Below are positions 4,120 to 20,153 of a stretch of DNA of 20,153 nt, piece after piece. A program made the translations under genes and the position numbers. A model generated the notes under the pieces. It searched no databases, was not told the origin of the DNA, and worked only from the letters and a program-made list of their open reading frames with translations. Position 1 is the stretch's first letter; the number at the start of each line of letters is the position of its first letter. This stretch comes from a virus. The stretch is from positions 1 through 20,153 of IMG/VR virus record IMGVR_UViG_3300046804_001651; one strand, given 5' to 3'.

Positions 4120-4527
4120 CTATACCCTAGAAATGCCGCGTGGGTCTTGAACCACAGCATCAACGGTATCCTCGTTAATCATCCGAAACTCGCGCCCGTG
4201 AATCTTTAGGCGGGTACCTGAGTTGGGTCGTGCTAAAACAAAGTCTCCCGGCTTGCACCACGGGCCGGTGGGGTACCGTTCCTTGTCGGTGTAGCAGTCA
4301 GGGCCTAGGGCTACGACAAAAAATACTGTAGCCAGCACTTCTTCATTCCGCCTAGTTTCATCGGATTTAATAAGGCCGCTTTCAAACTTCTCTTCTGCCT
4401 CGGGTAGAGCCACCAGAATTTTGTACCCAACAGGTGCTGGTAGTTGAGTCGCCTTTTCTTCTGCGGTCTGAGGTAATACGGTTGCATCCAAGCTATCGGG
4501 GTTTGAGCCGATTAGGATTTCAGTCAT
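4120..4527 (-). CDS. Phage GroES-like co-chaperonin (Cpn10 family)
   Basis: The 135-aa product matches the GroES fold in order. GYKILVAL (34-41) corresponds to the first strand. ESGLIKSDETRRNEEV (49-64) is the mobile loop, with GLI in the place of the GroEL-binding hydrophobic tripeptide. ATVFFVVALGPD (66-77) is the GEVLAVG-type strand. CKPGDFVLAR (91-100) is the VGDIVIF strand, and RMINEDTVDAVV (115-126) the C-terminal strand. About 30 N-terminal residues precede the fold. It would cap host GroEL during folding of phage proteins, as T4 gp31 does for its capsid protein; that job is inferred. The start at 4527 gives ATGACTGA, overlapping the preceding 65-aa gene by 8 bases. A longer in-frame extension to 4677 only runs through that gene and is rejected. 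Confidence 0.85.
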   Translation of the reverse strand: MTEILIGSNPDSLDATVLPQTAEEKATQLPAPVGYKILVALPEAEEKFESGLIKSDETRRNEEVLATVFFVVALGPDCYTDKERYPTGPWCKPGDFVLARPNSGTRLKIHGREFRMINEDTVDAVVQDPRGISRV

Positions 4528-4717
4528 CGTCGAAATGCTCCAAGTTTTTTGCGAGGTCAAGTAAGTACATCTCCACGTTGGTGAGGCCTCGAATCTCACC
4601 ACACATGTATCTATAGTCCTCGTAGCTTTTAGCCGCGCCTGAAGCGGCTGCTTCGGATAACTGCGTGCGTCTGGCACGCAACTCCTGTAAAACTACTTCA
4701 ATGACTTTGTTCATCAT
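4520..4717 (-). CDS. Small conserved phage protein between portal and GroES genes (65 aa)
   Basis: A helical, charged 65-aa protein with the central pattern YEDYRYMCGEIRGL and an acidic C-terminus. It starts by an ATGA overlap with the portal stop (ATG at 4717; a second ATG follows directly) and ends inside the GroES-like gene, so all three genes are translationally coupled. The YxxYRxxCGxIxGL pattern is one I associate with short uncharacterised proteins next to portal genes of podoviruses. Function unknown; a head-assembly helper is possible from position alone. Confidence 0.65.
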   Translation of the reverse strand: MMNKVIEVVLQELRARRTQLSEAAASGAAKSYEDYRYMCGEIRGLTNVEMYLLDLAKNLEHFDDD

Positions 4718-7196: not shown

Positions 7197-7742
7197 TTAT
7201 TCCTCGTAATATGTATAGGCCCAGCACACGGCGGCGTATCTGACACCACGGGTTACTGGAGTCACACGGTGTTCGGCTTTTGCATCGAACACAACTATGT
7301 CCCCCTGATTCTTTAGGAGGTTGTCGCTTTTGTCTTTAATCTGTAGCAGCCCACCTTCAAACTCTGATGGGTCGTTCAAGAGCATCACTAGTGATACCCC
7401 TCTAACCTTTCCGTCTCGTGGCGGCAGCACGTCGTTGTGCCACATGTAGTGCCCACCCTCGCCGTATCTAATGATCTGCACGACATCAAAGTCACAGATG
7501 GTCTTGACCCACTGACCTTGCCTCTCGCCGTCTATCAAGTAGTTCTTACACACTGAACCTATAGGTGACATCAAGTCTTGCGACACGATACTAGCCCTGC
7601 GGAGTATCTTAGATACTTCAGCGCCTTCATCCTTGTACACTGTAGCGTCCTGCGCCACAGCCCAATCTATCGAGCCTTTGACGTAGTCACAGAATGCCCG
7701 TGGCATCGCTTTCTCGTAGTACATACAGGTGAAGTTAGACAT
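7197..7742 (-). CDS. 2-oxoglutarate/Fe(II)-dependent oxygenase (prolyl 4-hydroxylase-like)
   Basis: The 181-aa product carries the complete facial triad of the family: H102 and D104 in YMWHNDVLPP, and H158 in AEHRVTPV. The 2-oxoglutarate-binding Arg is R168 in RGVRYAAVCW. This HRVTPVxRGxR layout is typical of the P4Hc/PKHD group. The domain fills the whole protein with no extra modules. Such enzymes hydroxylate protein side chains or nucleic acid bases using O2 and 2-oxoglutarate; the substrate here cannot be read from sequence. The start ATG at 7742 overlaps the previous stop (TGATG). It sits inside the packaging/head operon, so late expression and a virion or host-protein substrate are plausible inferences. 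Confidence 0.88.
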   Translation of the reverse strand: MSNFTCMYYEKAMPRAFCDYVKGSIDWAVAQDATVYKDEGAEVSKILRRASIVSQDLMSPIGSVCKNYLIDGERQGQWVKTICDFDVVQIIRYGEGGHYMWHNDVLPPRDGKVRGVSLVMLLNDPSEFEGGLLQIKDKSDNLLKNQGDIVVFDAKAEHRVTPVTRGVRYAAVCWAYTYYEE

Positions 7743-14160: not shown

Positions 14161-15234
14161 ATGGCATCACTAAACTTCGGCAAGTCAGTATCACTCAAAC
14201 AAGCAGCCAAGCTAATCGGTACTGTAAGAAACAATCGCTTCATGTTGCAAGGCGAGCCTGGCATCGGTAAGTCTAGCCTTATGGGTGCGCTAGCAGATAT
14301 GTACCCCGACTATCACCTAGCCTACATCGACGTGCCGAACATGGACTTGGGCGACATCTGCATGCCCGTCATTGACCATGACTCTAAGACTACTAAGTAC
14401 TACCCCAACGCACGCTTCGGTATCCACACAGGCAAGCCGAGCATCATCATGTTGGACGAGTTTTCGAAAGGCTCACCGCCCGTAATCAACATGCTGCACC
14501 CGCTACTCGAAGCACATAACCCTCGCCTCGGTGACTTGCCATTGCATCCCGACAGTATCGTGTTCATGACAGGCAACCTAAGTACTGACGGCGTAGGTGA
14601 CAATCTCAAGGCGCATACACTTAACCGTGTGTCTAAGGTCGTAGTGCGCAAGCCTGACGGTGACGAGTGGACAGAGTGGGCTATCGCTAACGGCGTAGAA
14701 CCCATCGTTATCGCTGCTGCTCGTGAGTACAAGGGCGATTGGTTTGCGTCCTACTTAGATCACCCCGAGGGCTTGCCTAAAGAGGCGGTTGTGTTCAACC
14801 CTAAGATGCCAACGACTGCGTACGTATCAGGTCGTTCGTTAGAGCGTGCGTCCAACATCATCAAGCATCGTGACGTGTTCGACAGTGACAGTCTTATCGC
14901 TGCGTTGTCAGGCACTATCGGCGAGAAAGCATCGCGTGACTTAGAAGCGTACATCACCTTCGCAGATCAGCTACCTACGTGGGAAGCAATCATCAAGTCA
15001 CCAACAACTACACCTATACCAGAGGGTGCAGGTGCGTGTGCATTGGTAGCGTTCAACGCTATCGCTAAGGTAGAGAAGGACACCATGACCCCATTCATGG
15101 ATTACATATCTCGCTTCGCTCCCGAGTGGCAAGCATGCTTCGCAATCAACATCGCTAAGTCACCACGTCAAAAGATCGCGTTCGGTTGCAAGGCGTTCAG
15201 TGATTGGGTAGCTAAGAACGAGGACTTACTGTGA
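14161..15234 (+). CDS. MoxR-type AAA+ ATPase
   Basis: The 357-aa protein has the full ATPase core. Walker A is GEPGIGKSS (31-39), Walker B IIMLDE (95-100), sensor 1 MTGNLS with N139, an arginine-finger-like R156 in HTLNRVSKV, and a sensor 2 Arg in VSGRSLERA (R225). The layout matches the MoxR/CbbQ/NorQ class, whose ATPases work with VWA-domain partners to remodel or activate target proteins. The partner is apparently the HExxH-VWA protein two genes downstream. AAGGAGC precedes the ATG; the next gene starts by GTGA overlap. The ATPase activity is well supported; the target in the host or phage is unknown. Confidence 0.9.
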   Translation: MASLNFGKSVSLKQAAKLIGTVRNNRFMLQGEPGIGKSSLMGALADMYPDYHLAYIDVPNMDLGDICMPVIDHDSKTTKYYPNARFGIHTGKPSIIMLDEFSKGSPPVINMLHPLLEAHNPRLGDLPLHPDSIVFMTGNLSTDGVGDNLKAHTLNRVSKVVVRKPDGDEWTEWAIANGVEPIVIAAAREYKGDWFASYLDHPEGLPKEAVVFNPKMPTTAYVSGRSLERASNIIKHRDVFDSDSLIAALSGTIGEKASRDLEAYITFADQLPTWEAIIKSPTTTPIPEGAGACALVAFNAIAKVEKDTMTPFMDYISRFAPEWQACFAINIAKSPRQKIAFGCKAFSDWVAKNEDLL

Positions 15235-15443
15235 GTATCAGCGACGATAGAAAGTTTTGGGAGTACCTGCACTCTAGGTATCAAGGCAAGGTACATCGGC
15301 TAGAACGGATGCACACTCCTGAGTTTATCGGGCTGCGTGTACTTGTGGAGTTCCGCATACCTGAAGGCGAGGCTGACGAGCTTGAGATGTACCGACGCAT
15401 CAACAAAGTAATCCACGTGATAGCAGAGGGTGATGATGAGTGA
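15231..15443 (+). CDS. Hypothetical protein coupled to the AAA+ gene (70 aa)
   Basis: The start is GTG at 15231 within GTGA, overlapping the ATPase stop, so translation is probably coupled. The protein has a helical N-terminus (DRKFWEYLHSRYQGKVHRLE), a strand-like LRVLVEFRIP, and an acidic end EGDDE. No membrane segment or metal motif. No family recognised. Its place between ATPase and VWA genes makes it a candidate adaptor of that complex. Confidence 0.65.
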   Translation: MSISDDRKFWEYLHSRYQGKVHRLERMHTPEFIGLRVLVEFRIPEGEADELEMYRRINKVIHVIAEGDDE

Positions 15444-15723
15444 TTACTTCTATGACTACGGGTGGCAGTACGAGGACAACAAAGATACTGCGTACCGCAC
15501 AGGTAAGGAGAACAGACACTATCGTGTGTTCAAGCACTACAGAGATGGACGCATAGAGGGTGTGACTGAAATCATGTCCAGAGATGATGCAATAGAGATG
15601 TGCAAACAAATCCAACTGCTTGACCCCGTAGGTCAGATGGATTGGGTAGATGATTGGCACGAAGCAGAGCAAGAGAGGTTAGCACAACGTAACGATTACT
15701 TAACAGCAAAGGGGAGACTATGA
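15436..15723 (+). CDS. Hypothetical protein (95 aa)
   Basis: GAGGG (15426-15430) favours ATG 15436 over the ATG at 15433 or the GTG at 15430; all overlap the preceding gene. The product is rich in Tyr, Asp and Arg (YFYDYGWQYED, HYRVFKHYRDGRIEGVTE) followed by a helix with SRDDAIEMCKQIQLLD. The strand-then-helix layout faintly resembles the small LTxxE-motif proteins downstream. It ends in an ATGA overlap with the HExxH-VWA gene. Function unknown. Confidence 0.65.
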   Translation: MSDYFYDYGWQYEDNKDTAYRTGKENRHYRVFKHYRDGRIEGVTEIMSRDDAIEMCKQIQLLDPVGQMDWVDDWHEAEQERLAQRNDYLTAKGRL

Positions 15724-16895
15724 CTGAAGAGAGAAAGCTAGCGAAGGTAAAGATCGCAATCATGCGGAACCCTAAGTTCGCATTCTGGTCGGGCATCTTG
15801 ATGGTCGGTAAGACTAGCATCGTAGATGGACTACCAACAGCAGCAACCAACGGGCGCGATGAATTGTATGGGCGTGAGTTTGTAGCCAAGCTGAACGAGA
15901 AGGAACTGGCATTTGTCATTCTTCACGAGGCTATGCACAAATGTTATCGACACTTAACTACGTGGCGTAAGTTATGGGAAGAAGAACCCATGCTAGCCAA
16001 TGCAGCTATGGACTACGTAATCAATCTTGAGTTGCATGACATGGCTAAGGCAACAGGCTTACTTGCTTTCCCTGTGATTGACGGTAAGCAGCTAGGTCTA
16101 CTCGATGAGAAGTATCGAGGCATGAATACCAAGCAAGTGTTCGACTTACTCAAGCAGCAATGCCAAGACGGTAACGGTGAAGGCAATGGGTTTGACGATC
16201 ACGATTGGGAGGGTGCGGGTAAGTTGTCTGACGAAGAGAAAGAAATGTTAGGCAAAGAGATTGACCGAGCTATTCGTCAAGGTGTACTTGCAGAGAAGCG
16301 TGCAGGTGTAGGTGCAGGGGGGCGTAGCCTTGAGCTTGAAGATTTACTCAACCCACAAGTTAACTGGCGCGAGGTACTGCGCGAGTATGTCAAATCAATA
16401 TGCAGTGGAAAGGACGCATCATCATGGCGCAAAGTCAATCGACGTTTCCTGTCAAGCGACACGTATATGCCTACGTTGGTAAGCGAAAGGGTAGGTCACT
16501 TAGTCGTAGCCGTGGATACATCAGGCTCTATTGGGGGTCGTGAGTTAGCTAACTTCTTAAGCGAAGTTAAGTCTATAGCAGAGGAGGTAACACCTGACAA
16601 GGTTGACTTGCTCTATTGGGATGGGGAGGTAGCAGGGCATGAAGAGTATGACAGTAGTACGGTGGCTAGTATCGTTGAGTCAACTAAGCCGCGTGGTGGT
16701 GGAGGCACTTCGCCTAGTTGTGTTAGCACGTATCTTAAAGATAAGGGCATCAAGCCTGAGTGCGTCATCATGCTCACAGACGGATATGTTGGTAACGATT
16801 GGGGTGAGGGTTGGGAAGTACCTGTACTCTGGACGATCGCTGGTAACAACAGTGCCGTTGCACCTAATGGACAAACTATTCACATCAATGACTAG
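15720..16895 (+). CDS. HExxH metallopeptidase-like / VWA (MIDAS) protein, DUF2201-type
   Basis: This 391-aa protein joins two domains. The N-terminal part has HEAMHKCYRH (69-78), an HExxHxxxxH zinc-site pattern, and then NAAMDYVIN (94-102) with conserved polar residues, as in DUF2201 N-terminal putative metallopeptidases. A Gly/Asp-rich linker (about 148-200) follows. The C-terminal VWA fold has MIDAS residues VDTSGS (D266, S268, S270), Thr in GGGGTSP (T330) and D354 in MLTDGY. VWA proteins with an intact MIDAS bind metal and partner proteins, and act with MoxR ATPases. Here all key residues appear intact, so both metal sites may be active. Start overlaps the previous gene (ATGA). Substrate and role in infection are unknown. 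Confidence 0.88.
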   Translation: MTEERKLAKVKIAIMRNPKFAFWSGILMVGKTSIVDGLPTAATNGRDELYGREFVAKLNEKELAFVILHEAMHKCYRHLTTWRKLWEEEPMLANAAMDYVINLELHDMAKATGLLAFPVIDGKQLGLLDEKYRGMNTKQVFDLLKQQCQDGNGEGNGFDDHDWEGAGKLSDEEKEMLGKEIDRAIRQGVLAEKRAGVGAGGRSLELEDLLNPQVNWREVLREYVKSICSGKDASSWRKVNRRFLSSDTYMPTLVSERVGHLVVAVDTSGSIGGRELANFLSEVKSIAEEVTPDKVDLLYWDGEVAGHEEYDSSTVASIVESTKPRGGGGTSPSCVSTYLKDKGIKPECVIMLTDGYVGNDWGEGWEVPVLWTIAGNNSAVAPNGQTIHIND

Positions 16896-16905
16896 GGGGA
16901 AACGT

Positions 16906-17148
16906 ATGGCTAAGATAGTGGTGCAGGTTGGATACAAGAGCTTTGTGATGGAAGGCGATAAAGCATTGCAATTGTTAGACACGCTAGCAAACGCGGAGAT
17001 ATACGAGTCAAAGTATCGCAGTGAGACCGAGGGTGGTACGACATATCACATCTATCCCCAAGAATCTACGTCACGCATAGTAGAGATAGGCTACCTGACT
17101 GACACACAGTACAACATGTACAAGTTAGCAGGTAAACCAAGTGAGTAG
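16906..17148 (+). CDS. Hypothetical protein (80 aa)
   Basis: A GGGGG run (16895-16899) at the end of the VWA gene precedes ATG 16906. The first strand MAKIVVQVGYKSFVMEGDKA leads into a helix (LQLLDTLANAEIYESKY), then strands with TTYHIYPQES and a final helix. It reads as a compact alpha/beta domain. No known family recognised. The next gene begins 8 bases inside its end. Likely an accessory of the ATPase-VWA cluster by position. Confidence 0.65.
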   Translation: MAKIVVQVGYKSFVMEGDKALQLLDTLANAEIYESKYRSETEGGTTYHIYPQESTSRIVEIGYLTDTQYNMYKLAGKPSE

Positions 17149-17380
17149 GCTAATAACCATGCAGCAGCTACAAGACGATGTGGTGCGTATGTTAGAGGAT
17201 GCAGCAAAACCTCAACCCACTAGAGTGCTTATCTTTGATACGGGAGAAGCTATATACGAGTTGAACGAATACCCTACAGGGTGGACGATACAAAGAAATA
17301 GCGATAGAGATGCGCGTATAAAACTCGTAGAGAATCTAACCGAGGAGGAGATGTGGGCGATGCTGAAGTTGTTGAAGTAA
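17141..17380 (+). CDS. Small protein with C-terminal NLTEEE motif (79 aa)
   Basis: The GTG at 17141 overlaps the preceding gene by 8 bases; an ATG at 17159 (MQQLQDDVV) is an equally possible start and neither has a strong ribosome site. The second half reads GWTIQRNSDRDARIKLVENL then TEEEMWAMLKLLK. This strand-plus-helix ending recurs in the proteins at 17390 and 19221 in this window, so the three appear paralogous. Function unknown. Confidence 0.6.
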   Translation: MSRLITMQQLQDDVVRMLEDAAKPQPTRVLIFDTGEAIYELNEYPTGWTIQRNSDRDARIKLVENLTEEEMWAMLKLLK

Positions 17381-17389
17381 GGAGGTGAT

Positions 17390-17557
17390 ATGAGTGACGT
17401 GCTGATGAGTGACTTCTGGCCGACGTACGATAAAGCGTTTGACCGAGGCACACAGGATTGGTGCATAGTAAGTTATGTAATAACAGACCCAAAGATAATA
17501 AAAACAGGACTAACCGAAGAAGAAGCAGACGCATTTCTAAAACTATTAAGGAGCTAA
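17390..17557 (+). CDS. Small protein with C-terminal LTEEE motif (55 aa)
   Basis: GGAGGTGAT lies directly before the ATG at 17390. The 55-aa product reads DWCIVSYVITDPKIIKTGLT then EEEADAFLKLLRS, closely matching the C-terminal half of its upstream neighbour and the protein at 19221: W/Y-x-I-V strand, a second strand ending in IK, then (N/G)LTxxE and a helix with KLL. The gene's own end supplies the AAGGAGC ribosome site for the 288-aa gene. Function unknown; it may be a minimal version of this domain. Confidence 0.65.
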   Translation: MSDVLMSDFWPTYDKAFDRGTQDWCIVSYVITDPKIIKTGLTEEEADAFLKLLRS

Positions 17558-17558
17558 T

Positions 17559-18425
17559 ATGAGTATCTCATCAAGTGCAGTGCTAGTAGAGCTTAACGTA
17601 TCCACATGGGGTGCGAGCAAACTAGATCGGGATGTAGCCGATGGTGTTAACCGTAACAACAACGCATCGAACGATGCAAGTAAGGTGTATAAGAATCTCG
17701 CAGCAGGTACTACGCTAGTCAATGACATCAGTAAGTATGCTGCACGTATTCGCCTGTATCACAACGAGATGACGTTGCCGTGGTCTAACAAGGGTGCGCG
17801 TATCTTGCCTGTGGCATCAGTGCTTGAGTACAAGCAGAACATGAATCAATTCCGTACGCAGTACGAAGCTATGTGTAATAACCTGTACACACAGTATGCA
17901 AACCTAGTATCAACAGCGCAAGCTAATCTCGGTGCGTTGTACAAAGCAAGTGACTATCCAGATGTAGAGGACATCAAGTCTAAGTATGGCTTACGTCTAG
18001 TGTTCAGCCCACTACCTGAGGCGGGTGACTTCCGTCTCGATACAGCTAACGAAGATATGGCAGCGTTGCGTGAAGAGATGGCTGCATCATACGAAGCTGA
18101 CTTCCAAGACCGACTAGCTAAAGCAGTACGTGAACCGTGGGATAGACTGCACGACGAGCTACGTGCACTATCTAATAAGCTGCATGACGTAGAGGGTGAC
18201 GAGACTAAGAAGCGTTACCACGACAGTCTTATTACTAACCCACAACAGCTATGCTCGCTGCTAACTAAACTCAACATCACTAATGACCCGCAGCTTGAGG
18301 AGGCACGACGTGACCTTGAGCGTGCGTTGGTAGGTGTAGAGATTGAGGACATCAAAGAGTACGGTCATGTACGCAGCGATGTCAAAGCTAAGGTCGATGC
18401 AATCATCGGCAAGTTCAACTGGTAA
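17559..18425 (+). CDS. Helical phage protein of the AAA-VWA cluster (288 aa)
   Basis: AAGGAGC overlapping the previous stop precedes ATG 17559. The N-terminus (MSISSSAVLVELNVSTWGAS, then KLDRDV) begins with a strand-like segment and a conserved-looking NVSxW. Most of the rest is helical and charged, with YHNEMTLPWSNKGARILPVA and RLVFSPLPEAGDFRL as more ordered blocks. A long helix spans about residues 180-260. I recall similar LNxSxW proteins near MoxR/VWA genes in other phages, but cannot verify a family name (a DUF3150-like assignment is possible). No catalytic motif is visible. A structural or adaptor role for the ATPase system is an inference from position. Confidence 0.7.
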   Translation: MSISSSAVLVELNVSTWGASKLDRDVADGVNRNNNASNDASKVYKNLAAGTTLVNDISKYAARIRLYHNEMTLPWSNKGARILPVASVLEYKQNMNQFRTQYEAMCNNLYTQYANLVSTAQANLGALYKASDYPDVEDIKSKYGLRLVFSPLPEAGDFRLDTANEDMAALREEMAASYEADFQDRLAKAVREPWDRLHDELRALSNKLHDVEGDETKKRYHDSLITNPQQLCSLLTKLNITNDPQLEEARRDLERALVGVEIEDIKEYGHVRSDVKAKVDAIIGKFNW

Positions 18426-19479: not shown

Positions 19480-20153
19480 ATGTACGGAACTTATAGGAAC
19501 AGCGGCATACGCCGCATCACACGCTACGAAGAAGCATTACACAGACTAAACAATACCAAACCTATTGCGGGTAACGGACGTAACGCAGGGATAGTGCCGC
19601 TAGGTCACCGCAACAGACCACACTTCCAACTGCGTATGCGACAAGACGAGAGCATTGCATGTAGGTTGTATCGCTCTGACGTGGTGGTGTTTGATAAGGA
19701 CGGCACTATTACCATTGACCCCGATGGGTATAGCACAATTAGTACGGCTAGCTTTATATCTGAGGTGTTAGGTGTAAGTGCTAGACAGTATGACAATCGC
19801 TTAGTAGTTCATGTGAATAATGGTACGTACCAAGCGGAAGGGTTGAAGCTGCGCTCAGTAGATGCATGGGATCACAGATACGAGGTAGTCGAGTGTGAGC
19901 AAGATGTAGTACATAACATTGACCGCAAGGTGATGAATGCGCTACGCAAAGATACGCAGGAGTATCGCAAGTTCTTGCATGGCTTCATGAAGATCAAAGA
20001 CTATACGTTGACAGATGAAGAGTTGCAGGAGTTAGACTTAAAAGAAATAGGTAGGTTGGCGTTTGACGTATGGCAGCACAACGCCGAGAACGTAATGGGT
20101 AGGTTCAATTGCTTCATGGGTATGGTTAGGAGTGGGGATGCAGGGAACTGGCA
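19480..20153 (+). CDS. Conserved phage protein, partial at window end (224+ aa)
   Basis: An open frame runs from ATG 19480 (GGAGC at 19471-19475) to the window edge with no stop. It opens MYGTYRNSGIRRITRYEEAL, then KPIAGNGRN and VPLGHRNR, then CRLYRSDVVVFDKDGTITID. This order (KPI.G..., PLG.R, YRTD-like, DG.I.I) matches a type of uncharacterised phage protein I recognise by pattern but cannot name. The later part is helical and charged. No catalytic motif is visible in the part present. A long soluble early-region protein. Confidence 0.65.
   Translation, partial: MYGTYRNSGIRRITRYEEALHRLNNTKPIAGNGRNAGIVPLGHRNRPHFQLRMRQDESIACRLYRSDVVVFDKDGTITIDPDGYSTISTASFISEVLGVSARQYDNRLVVHVNNGTYQAEGLKLRSVDAWDHRYEVVECEQDVVHNIDRKVMNALRKDTQEYRKFLHGFMKIKDYTLTDEELQELDLKEIGRLAFDVWQHNAENVMGRFNCFMGMVRSGDAGNW

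Follow-up and report, generated by a model that had tools for sequence, protein, structure and literature searches.

A 288-aa protein encoded in a virus fragment beside a MoxR-type AAA+ ATPase and an HExxH-VWA protein is a third core component, new here, of what was already known as a MoxR-VWA pair, and the three genes very probably constitute one functional module. The fragment (IMG/VR record IMGVR_UViG_3300046804_001651, positions 1 to 20,153) is 20,153 nt long and is referred to in its entirety as the window. An initial annotation of this DNA had overlooked both that N4-like and jumbo phages were known to carry the pair and that the main novelty lies in the 288-aa protein.

The operon and its ATPase and VWA proteins

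The minus strand of the window holds capsid, portal, GroES-like, 2OG-oxygenase and terminase genes, and the plus strand carries the MoxR-VWA-288-aa operon, all genes of which were confirmed where they had first been placed. On the minus strand, a GroES/Cpn10-like co-chaperonin gene (4120-4608; PF00166, 1.4e-6) is part of the structural block, and a 2OG-Fe(II) oxygenase gene (7197-7742; PF13640, 1e-16) is located between the portal and terminase genes. The operon had been described as tightly coupled, which is borne out by start/stop overlaps at 15231, 15436 and 15720; all features below are on the plus strand.

The first gene (14161..15234) encodes the putative motor, a 357-aa protein that had been called a complete MoxR-type AAA+ protein, and this description holds. 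The protein matches PF07728 (AAA_5) above the cut-off at 1.6e-7 and PHROG 1297 'ATPase' at 3.9e-46, and it has the Walker A (GEPGIGKS, K37), Walker B (DE99-100), sensor 1 and arginine residues (N139, R156, R225) by which it is assigned to the MoxR group. G34, G36, K37, D99, E100, N139, R156 and R225 are invariant in 22 relatives. When its profile was compared with the PDB, midasin AAA domains, CbbQ and NorQ were matched.

The second large gene (15720..16895) encodes a 391-aa protein, a putative adaptor and possible peptidase, in which both PF13203 (DUF2201_N; 6.6e-18, 65.7 bits, cut-off 23.2) and PF09967 (DUF2201; 2.3e-17, 63.7 bits, cut-off 26.4) score above the Pfam cut-off, so that it counts as a DUF2201 HExxH-VWA protein (COG3864-like). 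The predicted model (pLDDT 83) has a VWA fold at residues ~256-391 (Z ~12). The PHROG 1314 label 'HNH endonuclease', under which many phage records name this family, is contradicted for the window's protein by its DUF2201 and VWA domains as well as by the VWA fold, and was rejected.

An intact zinc-site pattern and an intact MIDAS had been claimed for this protein, and the motif columns of 53 relatives agree. The metal site consists of an HExxHxxxxH motif, H69-E70-x-x-H73-x4-H78 (15924..15953), and of D98 (16011..16013), a candidate third metal ligand in an NxAxDxxIN helix that resembles the D of NxxEDxRIE in DUF3150-linked VWA proteins. H69, H73 and D98 are present in 53/53 relatives, H78 in 52/53 and E70 in 48/53. 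In the MIDAS (16515..16781), D266, S268, S270 and D354 of the set D266-T-S268-G-S270, T330 and D354 are found in 53/53, and T330 is T in 51 and S in two. In five Desulfobacterota homologues (L091, L092, L095, L101, L109), which keep the two H and the D, L or T stands in place of E70. The loci of all five lack a 288-aa gene, and in that alignment E70 is kept wherever the 288-aa gene is present. The VWA tree, a quick version with long branches, was used only to place the loss of E70 and the members lacking the 288-aa gene. Since H69, H73 and D98 are invariant but E70 is replaced in five homologues, metal binding looks constant and catalysis dispensable in some branches. The HExxH domain may bind metal, with cleavage of a client possible.

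A conserved trio in viral loci

The 288-aa gene (17559..18425) had been listed as an operon member, and its presence in related loci goes beyond this. In a scan of viral contigs, the VWA gene was found at 59 loci and the 288-aa gene at 15. Of the related viral loci, 40, falling into 20 non-redundant groups, extend 2 kb or more on either side of the VWA gene, and MoxR, VWA and 288-aa genes occur together in 40/40 of these. The gene-neighbourhood survey across phages that the initial annotation had proposed therefore clearly finds co-occurrence, the lack of which was to count against the grouping. In the 54 loci that could be ordered, the three genes lie on one strand as MoxR-VWA-288 (43), 288-MoxR-VWA (6) or MoxR-288-VWA (5), and because there are three gene orders, all on one strand, the linkage survives rearrangement.

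Among the smaller ORFs of the operon and the 288-aa gene, only the latter is constant across clade loci, and the earlier proposal that the small proteins are components is not upheld. The 70-aa ORF (15231..15443), which has a GTG start over the MoxR stop and a weak match to phrog_14809 (0.0058), is probably no core part; it and the 95-aa ORF (15436..15723), which overlaps both neighbours, are clade-specific, and like the 79- and 55-aa ORFs they are poorly conserved and not core. The 80-aa protein (16906..17148) is a frequent companion in clade loci and is not present in all of them. Two further families, F6 (~310 aa) and F3 (~279 aa), adjoin the trio in many clade members and have neither a Pfam match nor a convincing PHROG match. 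The start of an F6 gene, recognized from an ORF with the F6 opening and from the gene order in relatives, lies at 19480..20153, where the end of the contig truncates it.

MoxR genes next to DUF2201-VWA genes occur widely, in phages, on plasmids and in chromosomes. One such pair is gp24/gp25 of N4, which are core genes there (PMC4193335), and group 2.2 jumbo phages have a MoxR-vWA pair with an N-terminal metallopeptidase, for which a role in virion assembly was proposed (PMC7824862); as in the window, a MoxR-like ATPase and a DUF2201-type HExxH-VWA protein are encoded together in both. In the Alteromonas phage vB_AemP_PT15-A5, the MoxR-VWA pair directly follows rIIA/rIIB-like genes. The 288-aa gene occurs in a subset made up of this phage clade, Planktothrix/Synechococcus phages, Simplicispira and Burkholderia plasmids and a few bacterial contigs. 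Unlike in the window, no 288-aa or DUF3150 relative was found in the N4-like records or the PA5oct record searched, and 288-aa relatives are likewise absent from pSYSA, HTVC and the other records searched. The vWA-MoxR-VMAP ternary conflict systems resemble the phage trio in joining MoxR-vWA to a third constant component (PMC7159879), but they are host conflict systems and VMAP is not known to be a DUF3150 protein.

DUF3150 and the plasmid trios

When the 288-aa family was compared with nine true DUF3150 proteins by hhalign, a match of 96% (2.9e-9) over 144 N-terminal columns was obtained, against 0.0-0.6% in controls with reversed, shuffled and unrelated profiles. PF11348 matches 3/20 family members (best 3.6e-6); two clade members that were rescored, L081 (2.1e-5) and L108 (3.1e-4), reach 24.4 and 20.6 bits, slightly under the cut-off of 24.9, and the window's own protein has no PF11348 match and does not reach the DUF3150 gathering score. 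At the profile level, the 288-aa family is homologous to DUF3150 but has diverged from it. The predicted model of the protein (pLDDT 81) has no convincing PDB match (Foldseek best E ~1) and found generic helix bundles only in VIA-align (Z up to 8.9), which gives no evidence for a new fold. Matches to apolipoprotein, tape-measure and portal-like proteins were weak, far under the cut-offs, and these assignments were rejected. No paper on DUF3150, or on DUF2201 with MoxR, was found in the open-access literature. Through the link to the phage trio, DUF3150 acquires a set of partners and a role that can be put to the test.

True DUF3150 genes in nine gammaproteobacterial genomes have a VWA gene as neighbour in 9/9, an AAA gene in 8/9 and a YqaJ exonuclease gene in 6/9. 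The neighbouring VWA proteins carry HExxH and MIDAS; in the DUF3150 trios tested, CbbQ_C was found in two of three AAA genes, and the VWA proteins match CobT. DUF3150 is present in 1078 plasmid records, 962 of them conjugative; a scan of alphaproteobacterial DUF3150 returned no match and was uninformative. On conjugative plasmids and chromosomal elements, the DUF3150 trios usually adjoin recombination genes; RecT, YqaJ exonuclease, SSB and, once, DnaN are among their neighbours. The Burkholderia/Cupriavidus plasmid cluster has the same three families as the phage in adjacent genes; on Cupriavidus pRK1-1, for example, MoxR, DUF3150 and DUF2201-VWA genes are adjacent, and the DUF3150 gene is reached by a query from the 288-aa family. 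Unlike the phage trio, this cluster resides on large plasmids and no F6 or F3 was noted there. In plasmid pBcp895-1, an IS21 element interrupts the 288-aa homologue, which has the MoxR gene on one side and the VWA gene on the other.

The genes of pVCR94deltaX stand in the order AAA, 301-aa, ssb, bet, exo, DUF3150 and VWA, and pSH111_166 has the same gene set. In IncC plasmids, vcrx091-093 encode an SSB, an annealing recombinase and an exonuclease (PMC12753305; PMC8744291). We infer that vcrx089 is the AAA gene of the trio and vcrx090 the gene next to it, because both precede vcrx091-093 in the gene order. The pVCR94 AAA protein, with AAA_5 and CbbQ_C domains, matches the trio AAA seed at 1e-104. 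Deletion of vcrx089-90 in pKAZ3 increased restriction by EcoBI 424-fold and by EcoKI 906-fold (PMC11602122). As in the phage, vcrx089-093 and the downstream genes bring an AAA_5 ATPase, DUF3150 and an HExxH-VWA protein into one block, and a DNA-stage mobile-element function is likely common to both. Unlike in the phage, the AAA protein is of the CbbQ_C/CobS type, the VWA protein is CobT-like, and vcrx090, ssb, bet and exo are inserted.

Proposed role and alternatives

Since the matching ATPase of conjugative plasmids and its neighbour gene shield the plasmid from host DNA-cutting enzymes, the phage trio may protect DNA. Our best explanation, put forward tentatively, is that the trio forms an AAA+ machine, expressed early, that takes apart a DNA-targeting complex of the host. 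Three roles had been offered initially, namely dismantling or activating a host complex, countering host defences and maturing a phage enzyme; of these, DUF3150 and the IncC hde operon now favour the countering of host defences. The MoxR hexamer would be the motor pulling on a client protein, which the VWA adaptor would hold via MIDAS metal coordination, and the 288-aa DUF3150 protein would be a subunit dedicated to adaptor function or to recognition. The HExxH domain would bind metal and might cut the client, and that the client is in fact proteolysed seems doubtful. The trio would be produced early, ahead of and alongside the replication genes, and would disarm a host complex attacking DNA as it enters; the likeliest target is a type I restriction enzyme or a comparable defence complex that translocates DNA.

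Several observations count against this anti-defence reading. The deletion took out vcrx089 and vcrx090 together (PMC11602122), and the published hde locus is vcrx089-093, with DUF3150 and VWA as the next two genes outside it. The phage and IncC trios are very divergent versions: their AAA genes are only distantly alike (3.2e-8, in a small database), and the A5-A7 match is restricted to the common VWA domain. No vcrx090 relative was found in the phage, and single-sequence comparison showed no relation of F6 or F3 to vcrx090. MoxR, VWA and 288-aa proteins had no match in PADLOC, a library of defence genes and not of counter-defence genes. Our confidence in anti-restriction is held down because the inference spans distant homologues and a double deletion lies behind it. 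An early or DNA-stage role rather than a virion-stage one is likely, and it fits both the position of the trio and its distribution on plasmids.

The main rival, rather unlikely in our judgement, is also a DNA-stage role: the trio would remodel or load the element's own replication or recombination complex, for example by clearing SSB or a recombinase or by activating a phage polymerase or nuclease. In many clade loci, where the contig extends far enough, the trio lies upstream of genes for VRR-NUC, DNA polymerase A and PD-(D/E)XK proteins, and the recombination genes beside the DUF3150 trios point the same way. Position alone, however, is weak evidence, and the phenotype of the vcrx089-90 deletion was lost protection from restriction. 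Moreover, HTVC027P, HTVC023P, DSL-LC04 and 023Pt_psg01, which have homologous terminases and similar PolA/primase/helicase blocks, lack a 288-aa relative in their whole records.

It is improbable that the trio is a chaperone-protease for virion assembly or maturation, as proposed for the jumbo-phage MoxR-VWA pair (PMC7824862) and for the p618-p892 pair of ATV (PMC4124505). The PA5oct MoxR ATPase record bears an ESI-MS/MS note, and in roseophage RPP1 the gp24/25 homologues lie close to structural genes, both of which would suit such a role. However, it fits this lineage poorly because plasmids carry the same trio, and conjugative plasmids have no virion. The trio is also on the strand opposite the terminase and the structural block, which already encodes a GroES-like protein; N4 gp24/25 are middle genes, and the phages with a homologous terminase do without the 288-aa gene.

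RavA-ViaA, NorQ-NorD, CbbQ-CbbO and CobS-CobT resemble the phage proteins in combining a MoxR AAA+ motor with a MIDAS-VWA partner, and we know of no DUF3150 third component in any of them. A machine of the CobS-CobT, NorQ-NorD or CbbQ-CbbO type, which activates a particular enzyme or inserts its metal cofactor, would agree with the CbbQ and NorQ matches of the AAA profile, with CbbQ_C in the plasmid-type AAA genes and with the CobT-like VWA proteins, but we consider it quite improbable, as no constant client enzyme stands beside the trio across elements and no cobalamin or cofactor gene is close by. That the 288-aa gene is a mere neighbour of a MoxR-VWA pair with unrelated hitchhikers can be given very little credence, for although pairs without it are common in N4-like phages and bacterial chromosomes, it co-occurs in every one of the 40 loci and in three gene orders, and DUF3150 has the same association in distant plasmids and genomes.

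Returning to the anti-defence machine, a broader proposal, which we regard as speculative and on balance unlikely, is that MoxR/CobS AAA+, HExxH-VWA and DUF3150 proteins form a machine, found across phyla in both phages and conjugative elements, by which DNA-targeting defence complexes of the host are unfolded or cleaved, as an encoded equivalent of the host's ClpXP-style restriction alleviation. Linking DUF3150 to the phage trio also suggests a way in which the AAA gene of the IncC hde locus might act. If the anti-defence reading is true, this lineage would differ from the other phage MoxR-VWA pairs, for which virion assembly has been proposed, and phages and plasmids would have a common AAA+ machine against host DNA defence.
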